Assembly: GCA_026168605.1 (NCBI GenBank)
Contig: JAPFDX010000012.1
Span: 62,001 to 126,000, forward strand
Reading direction: 5' to 3'
Length of the DNA stretch: 64,000 nucleotides
DNA from: Roseburia sp.
Lineage (GTDB): Bacteria; Bacillota; Clostridia; Lachnospirales; Lachnospiraceae
Shown here: in pieces, positions 7,190 through 43,799 of the stretch
Layout: each line of letters starts with the position of its first letter
How positions within the stretch are numbered: the first letter of the stretch is position 1
The notes under the pieces: model-generated
The model's input: only the letters and a program-made list of their open reading frames with translations
Database searches by the model: none
Told to the model about the DNA's origin: nothing
Made by a program: the position numbers and the translations under genes

Positions 7190-9046
7190 TTATGCCACCA
7201 CGTCCTCAAACTGCGAATTGTAAAGATTTGCATAAAATCCGTTTGCCGCAAGCAGCTCCCTATGATTTCCCTGCTCCACAATATCGCCGTCCTTCATGAC
7301 AAGGATCATATCCGCATCGCGGATCGTGGAAAGTCTGTGCGCGATGACGAAACTGGTCCTTCCGCGCATCAGGTTATCCATCGCCTTCTGGATCGCAACC
7401 TCAGTGCGCGTATCGACAGATGAGGTCGCCTCGTCAAGGATCAGGATCTTGTTGTCTGCAAGGATCGCACGCGCGATCGTCAGAAGCTGCTTCTGCCCCT
7501 GCGAAACGTTGCTTGCATCCTCGTTGAGCTCCATCTGGTAACCGCCCGGCAATGTCTTGATAAAATGATCGGCATGGGCTGCCTTCGCCGCCTCGATGAC
7601 CTCCTCATCGGTCGCATCCAGTCTTCCGTAGCGGATATTCTCCATGATCGTTCCCTTGAACAGCCATGTGTCCTGCAGCACCATTCCAAACGCGTCCCTT
7701 AACTCTCTGCGGTTAAATTCCCGCACATCGTGGCCGTCGAGACAGATCGAGCCGCTTCTCACATCGTAAAAACGCATCAGAAGCTTCACCATCGTCGTTT
7801 TTCCGGCTCCGGTCGGTCCGACGATCGCAATTTTTGCGCCCGGCGCAACCTTTGCGCTGAAATCATGGATGATCGTCTGATCCGGCTGATAGCCGAAGCT
7901 GACATGGTCAAACGTAACCGCTCCGGTGATCGCACCGACGTCCGCCGGATGCTCTGCGGTCTGATCCTCCTCTTCCTCATTCAGAAAGGCAAACACACGC
8001 TCAGACGCCGCCGCCATCGACTGCACCTGACTGATGACCTGCGCGATCTGCTGGATCGGTGAGGTAAAGTTCTTCACATACTGGATAAACGCCTGGATAT
8101 CACCGATCGTGATCACGCCGCGGATGGCAAGCAGTCCGCCGGAAAGCGCAACCGCCGCATACCCGAGGTTTCCGACAAACATCATGATCGGGTGCATCAT
8201 GCCGGAGAGAAACTGTGATTTCCATGCGGACTCATACAAAATACGGTTCGTCTCGTTGAACTCCTCAAGTGTCTCCTCCTCACGGTTAAACGCCTTGACC
8301 ACCAGATGGCCGCCGTAAATTTCCTCCACCTGTCCGTTGATGTGTCCCAGATATTCCTGCTGGCTCTTAAAATACTTCTGGGAGTGCTTCACCACCGACG
8401 AGATCAAAAATGCAGATATCGGAAGTATCACAAGCGCGATCAGCGTCATGAGCGGCGAGATACTGAGCATCATCACAAGGACGCCGACCAGCGTCGCCAC
8501 GGACGTGATGATCGTCGTGATACTCTGGTTTAATCCCTGACCGAGCGTATCGACATCGTTAGTGATGCGCGAGAGCACCTCTCCATAGGTCCGGCTCTCA
8601 AAATATTTCATCGGCATCCGGTTGATCTTTTCAGAAATCTCCCGGCGCATCCGGTAACAGATCTTCTGTGTCACCCCGGTCATGATCCAGCCCTGGATAA
8701 AGGAAAAAACAGCGCTGCACAGATATAAGCCCAGTACAAACAGCAGTACCTTTCCGATATACCCAAAATCGATCACGCCCGTTCCACGGATTTTTTCCAT
8801 CAGTCCTTCCGAGAGCGCCGTCGTCGCCTTTCCCAGGATCTTCGGCCCCACGACACTGAACACCGTCGAGCACGCCGCAAAAACCATCACGACAAAAATC
8901 GCGATCTTGTATTTTCCGATATATCCAGCAAGTTTCCCGATCGAGCCTTTAAAATCCTTCGCCTTCTCGGTGTGCCCCATGCCATGGCCGCCCATCGGCT
9001 CGTGATGTGCCGGACGGCTTCCCGCTCTTTCTCTCTCATTACTCAT
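7190..9046 (-). CDS. ABC exporter half-transporter, consensus-site subunit (YheH/BmrD-like)
   Basis: From ATG at 9046 the protein is 618 residues. A longer in-frame start exists at 9172, but 9046 lies in the classic overlap ATGAGTAA with the previous stop and avoids an Arg-rich leader. Six helices occupy ~50-340. The nucleotide-binding domain has Walker A GPTGAGKTT, a variant signature VSQGQKQLL and Walker B ILILDEATSSVD with the catalytic Glu intact. It pairs with the upstream gene, whose Walker B is degenerate, forming a heterodimeric exporter of the BmrCD/LmrCD/TM287-288 type. The cargo (drug, lipid or peptide) is unknown. Confidence 0.92.
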   Translation of the reverse strand: MSNERERAGSRPAHHEPMGGHGMGHTEKAKDFKGSIGKLAGYIGKYKIAIFVVMVFAACSTVFSVVGPKILGKATTALSEGLMEKIRGTGVIDFGYIGKVLLFVLGLYLCSAVFSFIQGWIMTGVTQKICYRMRREISEKINRMPMKYFESRTYGEVLSRITNDVDTLGQGLNQSITTIITSVATLVGVLVMMLSISPLMTLIALVILPISAFLISSVVKHSQKYFKSQQEYLGHINGQVEEIYGGHLVVKAFNREEETLEEFNETNRILYESAWKSQFLSGMMHPIMMFVGNLGYAAVALSGGLLAIRGVITIGDIQAFIQYVKNFTSPIQQIAQVISQVQSMAAASERVFAFLNEEEEDQTAEHPADVGAITGAVTFDHVSFGYQPDQTIIHDFSAKVAPGAKIAIVGPTGAGKTTMVKLLMRFYDVRSGSICLDGHDVREFNRRELRDAFGMVLQDTWLFKGTIMENIRYGRLDATDEEVIEAAKAAHADHFIKTLPGGYQMELNEDASNVSQGQKQLLTIARAILADNKILILDEATSSVDTRTEVAIQKAMDNLMRGRTSFVIAHRLSTIRDADMILVMKDGDIVEQGNHRELLAANGFYANLYNSQFEDVVA

Positions 9047-11360
9047 TCTCGGACACCTCACTTTCTTCCAGTCCCAATTCCTTCGCCGACAACTGCGACT
9101 TCGCGATCTCGCGGTAGGTCTCACAGCCGCGCAGCAGCTCCTCGTGCGTGCCTTTTCCAACGATCGCCCCATCGTTTAACACCAGAATCTGATCCGCGTG
9201 GAGGATCGTGCTGATGCGCTGTGCGACGATGATCACCGTCTTATCCGAGACCTTCTCTGCCAGTGCCTTGCGCAGCGCCGCATCCGTCTTTAAGTCAAGC
9301 GCGGAAAAGCTGTCGTCGAAAATATAGATCTGCGGATTTTTCGCGATCGCACGCGCAATCGCCAGACGCTGCTTCTGTCCGCCGGACACATTGCTTCCGC
9401 CCTGTGCGATCGGACTTTCGTATTTTTCTTCCTTCTCTTCAATGAAATCAGACGCCTGCGCGATCGCTGCCGCCTCCTTCAGCTCATCCTCCGTCGCCGT
9501 CTCCCTGCCAAAGCGCAGATTCGACGCGATCGTACCGGAAAACAGCACGCCCTTCTGCGGCACAAAACCGATCTCCTCGCGCAGATCGTGCATTGCGATC
9601 TCACGGATGTCCTTTCCGTCGAGAGTGATGCTTCCACCCGTCACATCATAGAGACGTGGGATCAGATTCACAAGCGTGGACTTACCGCATCCGGTGCTTC
9701 CGATGATCGCGGTCGTCTTACCCGGCTCTGCCACAAAATCAATATCGGTGAGCGCATCCTCCTCCGCTCCCGGATAACGGAAATTCACATGGGAAAACGC
9801 AACCACACCCTGATGCTCCGTCACTGCAAGCGGCTGCTCCTGATCGTTGATGGATGTCTCCGTGCGGAGCACCTCGTCGATACGGTCCGCTGCAACCGCC
9901 GCACGCGGCAGCATGATCGACATCATGGTCAGCATCAGAAATGACATGACAATCTGCATCGCATAGGTGATAAACGCCGTCATCGCGCCGACCTGCATCG
10001 TTCCGGCGTCGATCTTGTGCGCGCCAAACCACACGATACCCACAGAGAGCAGATTCATGATCATCATCATACCCGGCATCATAAATGTCATGACGCGGTT
10101 GGTAAAGAGCATTGTTTTTGTCAGGTCGCGGTTTGCCTCGTCAAACCGCTCCTCCTCTTTCTTCTCCCTTCCAAATGCGCGGATGACGGAAAGTCCCGTC
10201 AGAATTTCACGCGCCACCAGATTGATGCGGTCTACGAGCTTTTGCATCAGCTTAAAGCGCGGCATTGTGATCGCCATCAAAACAGCGACATAGCCTAAGA
10301 TCACAAGGACTGCCAGCACGATGATCCAGCTCATGCCCGCTCCCGTCTGGATGACCCGGATGATACTTCCGATGCCGAGGATCGGCGCGTACGCAACCAT
10401 GCGGATCAACATTGCAGACACCATCTGTACCTGCTGGATGTCGTTCGTGCTTCTCGTGATCAGGGACGCTGTGGAGAAACGGTCCATCTCCGCATTGGAA
10501 AAGCTCACCACTTTCGTAAAGACCCTTCCCCTTAAATCACGCCCGATACCGGCGCCGATCTTCGAGCCGAAATAGCCGACAAAGATTGTCGCAACACCCA
10601 TCAAAAGAGCGATGCCGACCATCTTAAGACCCTCGCTCCACAGATACCCGGTCTGTATCTGCTCCATATCCAGCCCTGCCTGTTCATTGCACTTTACGGC
10701 ATAGGCGACGCCCATCGACTTCACCATAGAACTTCCCATGGTATCCACGGTTTCCTGGAGTTCCTCACGCAGCGCGAGAAGCTGCTCCTGACCGATCGCT
10801 CCCGCATTTACCATCCGGGCAAAAATATCACGCATATCCACATAGGTCACCGTCCGGGTATTGCCATCGGCGTCCTGCACTTCCTTCTCAAAGCTGTTTA
10901 ACTCCACGCGCATCATCGCCCCGATCTGCTCCAGACTCATGGACGCGAGCACGCTCTCATCCGTTCCGGTCATCTGCGCAACGCTGCTGCGGAACACCTC
11001 CTCGTCCACCGCCGTCATCTGGTAATTGACAAGCAGCGCAATGGCAAGTTTTTCGTCCGCGGCATCAAGTTCCTCCTCGTTCGTCACCGTGCGGACATAG
11101 ACGTCGTCTTCCTTCCGGTAGCTCTCCTCCCAGAAAGAGATCTCATCCTCTGTCATAAAAAGCTTTGCCGCCTCGAACTCCCGCGCTGTCACAGCCTCCG
11201 GCAGCACGTGCTCCACACCGCTGTTTAAAATGCCGACGTCAATGATGTCCGACGTATATGCCGGCAACGACAGATCGCACCACGCCTGCACAAACAGGAA
11301 CAGAAGCACGACAAGTAACGATTTCCAGTACGGAATCATATTTTTAAAAATTCTTCCCAT
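9039..11360 (-). CDS. ABC exporter half-transporter, degenerate-site subunit with large extracytoplasmic insert (YheI/BmrC-like)
   Basis: ATG at 11360 (MGRIFKNMIPYW) gives 773 residues. An upstream in-frame ATG at 11396 would overlap the marR gene by 29 nt. Between helix 1 (~11-32) and helix 2 (~225-245) lies a mainly acidic soluble insert of about 180 residues, presumably outside the membrane. Walker A is GSTGCGKST and the signature is VSGGQKQRL. Walker B ends IYIFDDSFSALD, where Asp replaces the catalytic Glu. That is the hallmark of the non-hydrolysing site in heterodimeric exporters. It overlaps its partner gene by 8 nt. Confidence 0.92.
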   Translation of the reverse strand: MGRIFKNMIPYWKSLLVVLLFLFVQAWCDLSLPAYTSDIIDVGILNSGVEHVLPEAVTAREFEAAKLFMTEDEISFWEESYRKEDDVYVRTVTNEEELDAADEKLAIALLVNYQMTAVDEEVFRSSVAQMTGTDESVLASMSLEQIGAMMRVELNSFEKEVQDADGNTRTVTYVDMRDIFARMVNAGAIGQEQLLALREELQETVDTMGSSMVKSMGVAYAVKCNEQAGLDMEQIQTGYLWSEGLKMVGIALLMGVATIFVGYFGSKIGAGIGRDLRGRVFTKVVSFSNAEMDRFSTASLITRSTNDIQQVQMVSAMLIRMVAYAPILGIGSIIRVIQTGAGMSWIIVLAVLVILGYVAVLMAITMPRFKLMQKLVDRINLVAREILTGLSVIRAFGREKKEEERFDEANRDLTKTMLFTNRVMTFMMPGMMMIMNLLSVGIVWFGAHKIDAGTMQVGAMTAFITYAMQIVMSFLMLTMMSIMLPRAAVAADRIDEVLRTETSINDQEQPLAVTEHQGVVAFSHVNFRYPGAEEDALTDIDFVAEPGKTTAIIGSTGCGKSTLVNLIPRLYDVTGGSITLDGKDIREIAMHDLREEIGFVPQKGVLFSGTIASNLRFGRETATEDELKEAAAIAQASDFIEEKEEKYESPIAQGGSNVSGGQKQRLAIARAIAKNPQIYIFDDSFSALDLKTDAALRKALAEKVSDKTVIIVAQRISTILHADQILVLNDGAIVGKGTHEELLRGCETYREIAKSQLSAKELGLEESEVSENE

Positions 11361-19863: not shown

Positions 19864-19869
19864 TATAAT
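19864..19869 (+). promoter_or_regulatory. Extended -10 promoter before the structured element
   Basis: TGCTATAAT (TATAAT at 19864-19869 with an upstream TG) is an extended -10. The -35 region is weak. It would start transcription a few bases before the palindromic element at 19879, so that element would be the 5' part of the RNA that leads into the DUF3783 gene. Confidence 0.45.
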
Positions 19870-19878
19870 AACAATATG

Positions 19879-20173
19879 CCATGATACTGGGTTTTCAAAA
19901 TCGTAACTGCCAGGTAGCGCAAAGTGTATTCTGATTTGTGAATGTGGAGAATCTTAGAGTTTCTTAATGTTCCGTCAATTTGCAGCAATTCGCAGGCAAG
20001 GATGCCGGCGAAAACCCGAACTGCGCCGCGGATGGCGCATAGAGGGTGTTTGCGTCCGAAAACATAATGAATCCGGAACATTTTAGAAACTCTTGGATTC
20101 GGAACCCTGAACAAAAAGAATACACTTTGTGCCATCTGCCGGACACGATTTCTGAAAATCCATTTTCCCATGG
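19879..20173 (+). ncRNA. Structured repeat, copy 1 (candidate structured RNA or leader of the DUF3783 gene)
   Basis: This ~295-bp imperfect palindrome has outer arms of ~95 bp. Perfect sub-stems include AAAGTGTATTCT (19921-19932) with its complement at 20117-20128, and a TGCGCC/GGCGCA hairpin in the centre. The core is shared with the element at 42701-43008, read in the opposite genomic direction. Shared core pieces include CTGATTTGTGAAT, CAGCAATTCG, GATGGCGCAT, GAACATTTTAGAA and CCTGAACAAAAAGAATAC. Stem positions that differ between the copies change on both sides together. It ends 33 nt before the DUF3783 ATG. A MITE-like mobile repeat is the main alternative. Confidence 0.6.
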
Positions 20174-20206
20174 CCATCATGTTATAAAACAGAGAGGAGA
20201 AATTCT

Positions 20207-20563
20207 ATGGAAAAATTACTTGTCTTTGGTGTAAATGATACAGACTATCAGAAGATCCGCAGCATTGCCAGCCGGATGCGTCTTGGCTGCGAGCACATTC
20301 TGCCGGACGCTTACGGGTGTACGCTCGGGCAGATCCTGGACGGCGCGGTTTCGGCGTCCCCGGTCACGCACACGTTTTCCGAGAGCCTGCTTGTGATGTG
20401 CTCTCTCTCCGGCAAACGCATCGACAAGCTTTTATTTGAACTGCGGCACGGGAATGTCACAGTGGACTATAAGGCGATCCTCACACCGACCAACCGCAAC
20501 TGGACCGTCCCGCAGGTCTTTTTTGAGATGCACAAAGAAAAGGCAGCCCTGCGCCAGCCGTAA
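20207..20563 (+). CDS. DUF3783 domain protein
   Basis: This 118-residue protein matches the DUF3783 pattern: LLVFGVNDTDYQKI at the start, then VTHTFSESLLVMCSLSGKRIDKLLFELR and KAILTPTNRNWTVPQVFFEMHKEK. The family is common in clostridia and its function is unknown. GAGGAGA precedes the ATG. A structured element ends 33 nt upstream, so the gene may have a long folded leader. It converges with the YcxB-like gene, 7 bp away. Confidence 0.85.
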   Translation: MEKLLVFGVNDTDYQKIRSIASRMRLGCEHILPDAYGCTLGQILDGAVSASPVTHTFSESLLVMCSLSGKRIDKLLFELRHGNVTVDYKAILTPTNRNWTVPQVFFEMHKEKAALRQP

Positions 20564-41908: not shown

Positions 41909-42649
41909 CTATTCCAGCCGCACGATCTCCTTTTTCAGCCGCCCCATGATCTTCTTCTCCAGCCGCGAAATATAGGACTGGGAAATCCCCAGCATATCCG
42001 CAACCTCCTTCTGCGTCTTCTCCTCTCCCCCCGCAGAATTTAAGCCAAACCGCAGCTCAACGATCATCCGCTCTCTCCCCGACAGTTTCGCGATCGCCGC
42101 CTTTAGGAGCTTACGCTCCACATCCGTCTCGATATCCCGGTAGATCACATCCTCATCCGTCCCGAGGATATCCGACAAAAGAAGCTCATTTCCGTCCCAG
42201 TCCACATTGAGCGGTTCATCGATCGAGACCTCCAGCCTAGTCTTATTATTCCGCCTCAGATACATCAGAATCTCATTTTCAATACAGCGCGACGCGTAGG
42301 TGGCAAGCTTGATATTCTTGTTTGGGTTAAAGGTGTTGATCGCCTTGATCAGCCCGATCGTCCCGATGGAAATCAGAACCTCCACCCCAACCCCCGTGTT
42401 GTCAAATTTTTTTGCTATGTACACGACCAGACGCAGATTGTGCTCGATCAGTTTTTTGCGCGCCGCCTCCGGATGTTCCCCCACGAGCATCTGTATGCAG
42501 GCGTTCTCCTCCTCCCCCGCAAGCGGCGGCGGCAGCACCTCTGTGCCCCCGATATAATGCACCTCGTTTCTCTGCTGTAAAAAGAACCTTCCGAGTCCCG
42601 CCCACATCCGTTTCACACGGTATCCCGGAATCATCAGCTTTACATACAT
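41909..42649 (-). CDS. sigE: RNA polymerase sporulation sigma factor E (pro-sigma-E)
   Basis: ATG 42649 ([16 protein letters not shown]) with AAAGGAG gives 246 residues. The N-terminal ~25 residues form the membrane-binding pro-sequence, with the cleavage region near [11 protein letters not shown]. Region 2 ([25 protein letters not shown]) and region 4 ([22 protein letters not shown]) are typical. It directs early mother-cell genes, including the spoIIIA operon here. SpoIIGA, its activating protease, is encoded upstream, but the two are separated by a 308-bp structured element. Confidence 0.95.
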
Positions 42650-42700
42650 ACGTTCTCCTTTCCGCCGCAGTACAATCCCTGCGAAGCAATTCCCTATGTC

Positions 42701-43008
42701 GATTCGGGTGTCACAAGGGGTTTTACAGATTGGACTGGCAAAATGCACAAATGGTATTCTTTTTGTTCAGGATTCCGAAGCTAAGAACTTCTAAAATGTT
42801 CTTAAGTATCGGTACGGTGCAGGAACGCAACCGCCCTCCATGCGCCATCCATAGCGCAAGTCGAGCTTTCGCCGGCTTCCATGCCGTCGAATTGCTGGAA
42901 ATTGGAAGAACATTAAGAAGTTCTAAGCTTCTCCATATTCACAAATCAGAATACCATTTGTGCATTTGTCAATGTCCATTTGGAATACCCCCTTTTGACA
43001 TCCGAATC
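42701..43008 (-). ncRNA. Structured repeat, copy 2 (between spoIIGA and sigE)
   Basis: This ~308-bp imperfect palindrome has arms of ~100 bp, about 80% complementary by eye (e.g. 42749-42760 with 42948-42959, perfect). It is the second member of the family at 19879-20173. Read on the minus strand it has the same 5' to 3' order of core motifs and ends 51 nt before the sigE ATG. Seven base pairs that differ from copy 1 changed on both sides together. It would be transcribed as part of the spoIIGA-sigE mRNA. MITE insertion is the main alternative. Confidence 0.6.
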
Positions 43009-43013
43009 CTGTG

Positions 43014-43799
43014 TCACAAAAATGATGTATGCAGGATCAGATCATACCCCCGCTTCTCCAAAAGTCCCGCATCCGCGATCCCGACCGCCACGTGCGCCGC
43101 ACGCACCGTCCGTCTGCCGTCAAAAAGCTGCATCTCATCGACGTCCGTCACCCAGAGCATCCCGTCTGTCTCTCCCAGCGAACAGTACGGCACCAGACGA
43201 AAATGATCTTTTCTCTCATCAAAAAAATCTCTTGCCCGCTCCCCGCTCAGTATGCAGATCCCCTGCCCGGTATAGGGGTCATAAAGCTGGTTGCCGCTGT
43301 CCCTGTACGCCTTTAACTGCATACAGTTTCCCCGCTTTTTCAGCTTCGCGTCCAGAATGTGATTCCTAAAATTCCTTCTCTGCATAAGATAGAATAAAAT
43401 TCCATATACTCCAAGTACCCCCACCACTCCCCAGAGAAGAAAGTCTCTCGACAGCATCCCATTTTCCGTGAGCCACTGCATCATGCCACCGAGCAGCAAA
43501 ACGACAAAATAGGTCACCGCCCAGTTTTCCAGAAACTCCTTTTTGCCGCATCTGCCAAAGCAGAGAAATACCATCCCCGTATTCAGCAGAAAATGCGAAA
43601 AAACGGCATACAAAACCGCATTTTTCACGACAAGCAAAAGCGTCAGCCCCCCTGCGGACGAGACTGCCGCCGCAAGAACCAGCCGCCACCATTTCCTGCG
43701 ACGGGAAAGAAACAGATTCGCCCCCGAGACGGCGAGCAGATCCATCAGAAAATTTTGTATCAAAAACACATCCGCATAGAATACATATATCTTTCTCAC
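43014..43799 (-). CDS. spoIIGA: Sporulation sigma-E factor-processing peptidase
   Basis: The protein is 261 residues, shorter than the ~309 of Bacillus. Five or so N-terminal helices (~1-140) carry the sensor part. The C-terminal aspartic-protease domain has the catalytic Asp in LKAYRDSGNQLYDPYTG near 170. SpoIIGA becomes active when it meets SpoIIR across the septum, then removes the pro-sequence of sigma-E. The start is GTG at 43799. The promoter upstream has the unusual spoIIG layout. Confidence 0.93.
   Translation of the reverse strand: MRKIYVFYADVFLIQNFLMDLLAVSGANLFLSRRRKWWRLVLAAAVSSAGGLTLLLVVKNAVLYAVFSHFLLNTGMVFLCFGRCGKKEFLENWAVTYFVVLLLGGMMQWLTENGMLSRDFLLWGVVGVLGVYGILFYLMQRRNFRNHILDAKLKKRGNCMQLKAYRDSGNQLYDPYTGQGICILSGERARDFFDERKDHFRLVPYCSLGETDGMLWVTDVDEMQLFDGRRTVRAAHVAVGIADAGLLEKRGYDLILHTSFL

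Follow-up and report, generated by a model that had tools for sequence, protein, structure and literature searches.

TwoAYGGAY, a Known RNA Family, as the Centre of a Likely Mobile and CsrA-Binding Element in Roseburia

Results

Two Palindromic Elements in the Window

The DNA analysed here (hereafter, the window) is a stretch of 64,000 nucleotides from Roseburia sp. (assembly GCA_026168605.1, contig JAPFDX010000012.1, positions 62,001 to 126,000 of the forward strand). It contains two intergenic palindromic elements of about 300 bp, which are listed with the neighboring features in table 1. Copy 1 precedes a gene for a small DUF3783 protein. Copy 2, on the minus strand like the spoIIGA-like gene and sigE that flank it (positions 41909–43799), is in the sense direction with respect to both, and its surroundings resemble a sporulation operon that has the element inside it.

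An earlier examination of the letters (the sequence-only reading) had described these elements as sharing five core motifs and folding as a single long hairpin. All five motifs are indeed present in both copies, as are all of the arm variants that were quoted, and each copy folds as one long hairpin (−131.5 kcal/mol for copy 1 and −134.1 kcal/mol for copy 2) with a stability z score of −10.3 or −10.4, respectively, none of 100 shuffled sequences being equally stable. The elements are thus real, but their limits required a small correction, the pairing extending slightly beyond the ends first assigned to them (to approximately 19870–20183 in copy 1). Copy 2 is a unit of 306 bp (42702–43007) whose flanking 9-mers agree at seven of nine positions.

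Table 1. Positions of the two elements and of associated features in the window
Feature	Position	Strand	Basis
−10 box TATAAT just upstream of copy 1	19864–19869	+	sequence
Copy 1, clade B, entire palindromic element, presumed 5' leader	19870–20183	+	fold, clade tree
RF01731 TwoAYGGAY core, copy 1	19942–20107	+	113.3 bits
Loop 1, copy 1, CAAGGATG (consensus CANGGANG)	19997–20004	+	sequence
Loop 2, copy 1, CGCGGATG; G for A relative to CANGGANG	20027–20034	+	sequence
Ribosome-binding site and start codon behind copy 1	20192–20209	+	sequence
Gene behind copy 1, DUF3783 protein, 118 aa	20207–20563	+	
9-bp target-site repeat, one flank of copy 2, cctatgtcg	42693–42701	.	7/9 match
Copy 2, group A, with terminal inverted repeats	42702–43007	−	sequence, duplication test
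RF01731 TwoAYGGAY core, copy 2	42770–42937	−	107.3 bits
Loop 2, copy 2, TATGGATG, U-G closing pair	42846–42853	−	sequence
Loop 1, copy 2, CATGGAAG	42876–42883	−	sequence
9-bp target-site repeat, other flank of copy 2, cctgtgtca; overlaps spoIIGA-like stop codon	43008–43016	.	

Family Identity and Distribution

A cmscan search against Rfam matched both copies, over its full length, to RF01731 (TwoAYGGAY), with scores (table 1) far above the threshold of 43 bits, and membership of the elements in this family is well supported. The sequence-only reading had proposed a new family of structured RNA and had named an Rfam match among the results that would overturn this proposal; such a match having been found for both copies, the new family is rejected. 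Its underlying observation was correct: the element is structured and conserved, and its arms show compensatory changes. Like other TwoAYGGAY RNAs, the elements have two AYGGAY-type hairpins. What sets them apart is that the family's sequence here occupies the middle of a longer, mobile palindrome, of which a single genome has 39 copies; the Rfam model spans only the inner 168 positions of the element.

TwoAYGGAY has been an Rfam entry since 2010 without an explained function. The table of Weinberg et al. (2010) lists it as probably an RNA and probably not cis-regulatory, with sources in human gut, gammaproteobacteria and Clostridiales (PMC2864571); the type that Rfam assigns to RF01731 is Cis-reg. 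Gardner and Eldai (2014), relying on matches to motifs, put forward CsrA as its binding partner (PMC4333381), and the Rfam 15 report describes the addition of two covarying pairs to RF01731 (PMC11701678). The accessible portion of the Rfam 12 paper covers CsrA motifs and MITEs, and TwoAYGGAY does not appear there (PMC4383904). Among the matches listed in the open-licence literature, the titles and the beginnings of the abstracts make no mention of mobility, start-site position or csrA co-occurrence of TwoAYGGAY.

The source genome (2.73 Mb, 50 contigs) contains 39 RF01731 copies above threshold, which divide into group A (27 copies, including copy 2) and clade B (12 copies, including copy 1). 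Clade B was initially picked by eye on its sequence and the support of the tree came afterwards; it is monophyletic with an SH-aLRT value of 98. Within the genus, RF01731 is found in 25 of 62 genomes and is absent from 37, the positive genomes having from 1 to at least 37 copies (no more than 37 candidates were scored per genome). Of the genomes closest to the source at recA (82–84% identical at that locus), four have no copies (G003, G021, G059 and G023) and G028 has six. In a broader survey of the family, which sampled 298 genomes from across its genera, each at least 90% complete, 46 genomes gave a match at E ≤ 0.001, 44 of them above the cut-off. For comparative analysis, 64 copies from relatives (22 from G008, 21 from G005, 15 from G010 and 6 from G007) were picked among the best-scoring matches listed.

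Group A Has the Characteristics of a MITE

Bacterial MITEs and related dispersed palindromes are short and non-coding, with terminal inverted repeats, target-site duplications and deletion derivatives. The elements resemble them in all these respects; they differ in having a conserved and apparently selected RNA core, and in that an autonomous partner was not found. The copies of group A have ATTCGGGTGTCAAAAGG at one end and the complement of this sequence at the other. For 17 copies, neither end has more than four mismatches (10 of the 27 being left out by this requirement); their 9-bp flanks read as direct repeats match at a mean of 6.24 of 9 positions. Shuffling of the flanks between copies gives 3.76 ± 0.42, and the observed mean was reached in 0 of 2000 shuffles. 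The match rate per base is 0.69 at a length of 9 and only 0.09–0.34 at lengths of 2–8 and 10–13; two duplications (L034 and L037) are perfect. A weaker peak at 9 is seen in the relatives (14 copies, 4.07 versus 3.20 when shuffled, 21/2000), G008, which has other ends, and copies with more than five mismatches in either end having been left out; the best duplications there match at 9 of 9 (L076) and 8 of 9 (L078) positions. Group A consequently has both the terminal inverted repeats and the target-site duplication of fixed length (9 bp) by which a MITE is recognized, and its mobility is well supported. The source genome also contains shorter derivatives with the same ends (L155–L157), one of which is barely more than the two repeats, and three loci are empty in a relative: dinB (L001 compared with G003), copy 1 (compared with G028) and the spoIIGA–sigE spacer of copy 2 (compared with G003, and read by eye since the automatic alignment was poor).

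The sequence-only reading had suggested that target-site duplications and intact transposases carrying the same ends would identify the element as a MITE. The duplications are present in group A; an autonomous transposon or transposase with the element's ends was found neither in the source genome nor among the genus ends listed, and for this reason we call the element MITE-like. An IS256-type transposase was considered as the mobilizer in the source genome and rejected, the sole PF00872 gene being broken; the examined flanks of this gene contain no terminal repeat matching the element with five or fewer mismatches. In G020, where a pair of ends lies 1.8 kb apart, no enclosed transposase was recognized by eye.

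Several observations touch on the wider population of such elements. In G011, which has no RF01731 match, several elements of approximately 217–235 bp have a common terminal repeat, TTCGGGTGTCAAAAG (L164–L175), and are perhaps another MITE subfamily. By eye, four copies of the source genome (L013, L014, L029 and L036) and two of G010 (L091 and L097) lie directly behind terminator-like hairpins with T runs, a neighborhood that possibly reflects a target preference. G005 has divergent TwoAYGGAY pairs a few hundred base pairs apart with similar adjoining sequence (L067, L068, L071 and L072), and comparable close pairs occur in G008, G024, G007 and others.

Clade B Lies in the Sense Direction Behind Promoter-Like Hexamers

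All 12 clade B copies, copy 1 included, are in the sense direction with the next gene, versus 13 of 27 in group A (genes were called as longest open frames, those of copy 1 and L008 being corrected by reading). Close to their estimated left end, 10 of the 12 clade B copies have a hexamer that resembles a −10 box and departs from it at no more than one position, versus 5 of 27 in group A (p = 0.0002). In 8 of the 12 this hexamer begins 13–20 nt before the end of the element, and therefore transcription would start close to the element's first base. The comparison with empty sites bears on the same arrangement: the dinB gene of G003 and the G028 orthologue of the gene behind copy 1 both have a TATAAT box directly before the ribosome-binding site, the latter box being upstream of its gene though the element is absent. 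Speaking against such a start, an additional promoter behind the element was noted by eye for L002, L003 and L019.

The genes behind clade B are dinB, secA, a membrane protein without a family match, the DUF3783 gene (copy 1), a gene that we take from its motif to be SDR-like, pcrA, an AraC-type regulator, greA, purL, DUF5050, rsmF and DUF5721; no common regulon was seen among the 12. The 9-bp duplication, measured in these 12 copies apart from group A, was not found, only two to five of nine positions matching. For that reason the transposition by which clade B, like group A, presumably arose is argued from the kinship of the two, and it is only through this kinship that copy 1 is tied to the MITE.

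The Loops Resemble CsrA-Binding Sites

Across 206 loops, from 103 copies in five genomes, the consensus is C A N GGA N G, nearly always CANGGANG. The two G's and the A of the central triplet are present in 204, 206 and 206 loops, the first A in 196, the closing G in 206 and the closing C in 197; GGA is intact in 204, and only the two N positions vary freely. As aligned, ANGGA is found in 194 loops, the 12 exceptions comprising eight gaps and four substitutions, among them loop 2 of copy 1 (CGCGGATG). In most copies (86 of 103), a distance of 29 or 30 nt separates the two loops.

Substitutions private to single copies are rare in the loops, affecting 5 of 1228 constrained loop positions versus 518 of 11978 outer-arm positions; in group A the corresponding counts are 1/324 and 89/3115 (p = 0.003). 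The per-base value at constrained loop positions is below that of the remaining core and of the outer arms in all six groups, but in clade B a short stretch between the core and the outer arm is as low or lower (4/323 versus 3/144).

Apical hexaloops with CANGGANG are described by Dugar et al. as high-affinity CsrA/RsmE sites, with an optimal spacing of 18 nt (PMC4894983), and a review gives 10–63 nt as the range in which CsrA can bridge two sites (PMC7652899). The elements have ANGGA in apical hexaloops, the second loop of copy 1 excepted, and two sites at a bridging distance. According to the same review, the CsrA ligands obtained by SELEX have stems mostly of four pairs or fewer (PMC7652899); the long stems of the elements count mildly against binding. 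The RNA of the element is likely to bind CsrA.

Pairing in the Core and in the Outer Arms

The sequence-only reading had also concluded that selection acts on the fold. If selection acted on RNA pairing, changes leading to G-U should be favored over those leading to A-C. Among private changes at consensus pairs in the 103 copies, G-U and A-C were about equally frequent in the outer arms (100 and 102, respectively); the inner arms gave 27 G-U and 20 A-C (p = 0.4), and the apical hairpins 31 G-U and 15 A-C (p = 0.03). Counts relative to the group consensuses agree with these on the lack of a G-U excess in the outer arms (260 G-U, 248 A-C; apical hairpins, 92 versus 63), and they supersede a crude outer-arm count (326 G-U, 388 A-C). 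When the groups are taken singly, G008 (16 to 0) and clade B (18 to 6) show an evident apical excess, and G005 (19 to 22) and G010 (4 to 13) show none. For the core, with its nearly invariant loops and modest apical G-U excess, the conclusion is supported; the outer arms carry no RNA-strand signature, and hence their covariation, on which the sequence-only reading had in part relied, is no evidence for RNA selection. Their pairing is presumably maintained at the level of DNA, by transposition or template switching. The covariation of a long palindrome can, we caution, come about without RNA selection. In G008 (L046–L065) the outer arms of one copy are quite unlike those of another (mean identity 0.44) and still pair well, and the copies have other end sequences.

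CsrA Genes Co-occur with the Elements

A canonical csrA (contig C15, positions 9043–9198) is found in the source genome next to fliW and genes for the flagellum, so that a CsrA protein is encoded in the same organism as its proposed RNA ligand. FliW is a known antagonist of CsrA in Gram-positive gut bacteria. In the family survey, csrA is present in 44 of the 46 genomes with RF01731 versus 107 of the 252 without it (p = 1.2e-12, n = 298, a test that ignores kinship), and in all 39 genomes with at least two copies; G202 and G327, in which csrA was not found, have one copy each. Some of this link may be due to common descent or to motility. Within the genus csrA does not discriminate, since 58 of 62 genomes have it.

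There are five CsrA-domain genes altogether in the source genome. The four further ones are on contigs C47 (L042), C26 (L043), C38 (L044) and C9 (L045), two of them at contig ends; a flagellin gene adjoins L042 (by Pfam) and L044 (by eye), and tyrosine-recombinase-like genes adjoin L045 (by Pfam), L043 and L044 (both by eye). These are possibly switching flagellin loci. The idea that csrA itself is carried on the mobile element was rejected, the four extra genes lying beside flagellin and/or recombinase-like genes without an RF01731 match there.

Discussion

The reading that we favor, and to which we give somewhat better than an even chance, is that of a CsrA-binding RNA borne by a MITE and acting both as leader and as decoy. 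The elements would be copies of a MITE-like mobile palindrome of approximately 300 bp, spread by transposition with terminal repeats, a 9-bp target-site duplication and a transposase. When transcribed, as we presume the elements to be, the centre of the palindrome would form the TwoAYGGAY RNA, two stem-loops each displaying CANGGANG at a distance of some 29–30 nt, such that a single CsrA dimer could bridge both. In clade B, in the sense direction and mostly just behind −10 boxes, the element would form the 5' end of the mRNA and serve it as a leader to which CsrA binds, and regulation of the genes that follow is plausible; the transcribed copies jointly would titrate CsrA. Any effect on translation, on the stability of the mRNA or on the activity of CsrA is likewise presumed. 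Several observations count against this reading: the two genomes with the element in which csrA was not found, the 107 genomes that have csrA and lack the element, the departure of the second loop of copy 1 from CANGGANG, the long stems, the lack of a regulon and of a 9-bp duplication in clade B, the additional promoters behind three copies, the failure to find a transposase with the element's ends where it was sought, and a G-U excess that is modest and confined to some groups. The hairpins with GGA loops come in pairs whose spacing permits bridging, and in this they are reminiscent of the known CsrA/RsmA-binding RNAs (CsrB, RsmY, RsmZ and the flaA leader). The element differs from these in being dispersed and apparently transposed, in its position before unrelated genes and in its long stems, and its binding is a prediction. 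A precedent for the combined role of leader and sponge proposed for it has been published, the flaA leader of Campylobacter jejuni being an mRNA sponge (PMC4894983).

Other explanations were weighed. The elements could be purely selfish MITEs, whose hairpins and loops serve transposition (for example, as folded single-stranded DNA) and whose likeness to CsrA sites is a coincidence. The duplications and end repeats of group A, the lack of a G-U excess in the outer arms and the position of many group A copies beside terminators (as judged by eye), a harmless place, are all in accord with this. It has difficulty, however, with a loop constraint that coincides with the CsrA consensus and leaves only the N positions free, with the rarity of private changes in the loops of group A as compared with its outer arms, with the csrA link and with the uniform orientation of clade B, and we judge it unlikely. 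A second possibility is that the host uses the elements solely as decoys, transcribed by read-through or from their own promoters, which titrate CsrA while the gene behind each remains unregulated. The CsrA-binding proposal of Gardner and Eldai (PMC4333381), the match of the loops to CsrA sites, the csrA link and the unrelated nature of the downstream genes agree with it; but decoys have no need to be in the sense direction in 12 of 12 cases and mostly just behind −10 boxes, and this account too seems to us improbable. As for a new family of structured RNA, such as a riboswitch-like regulator, the conserved structure and compensatory changes that gave rise to the idea are outweighed by the full-length RF01731 match and by downstream genes that have nothing in common, which render it highly implausible.

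The reading of the elements as both leader and decoy has a further and more tentative extension. By placing a two-site leader at start sites, a transposable element may spread CsrA regulation to unrelated genes, its copy number tuning the level of decoy; we regard this as possible, though on balance doubtful. A known RNA family is here given a likely nature, that of a mobile, CsrA-binding element. If the favored reading is correct, TwoAYGGAY would serve a global regulator as a mobile RNA cassette; it would illustrate the wiring of a post-transcriptional regulon through transposition, and in Gram-positive gut bacteria it would be a source of CsrA decoys that is open to test.
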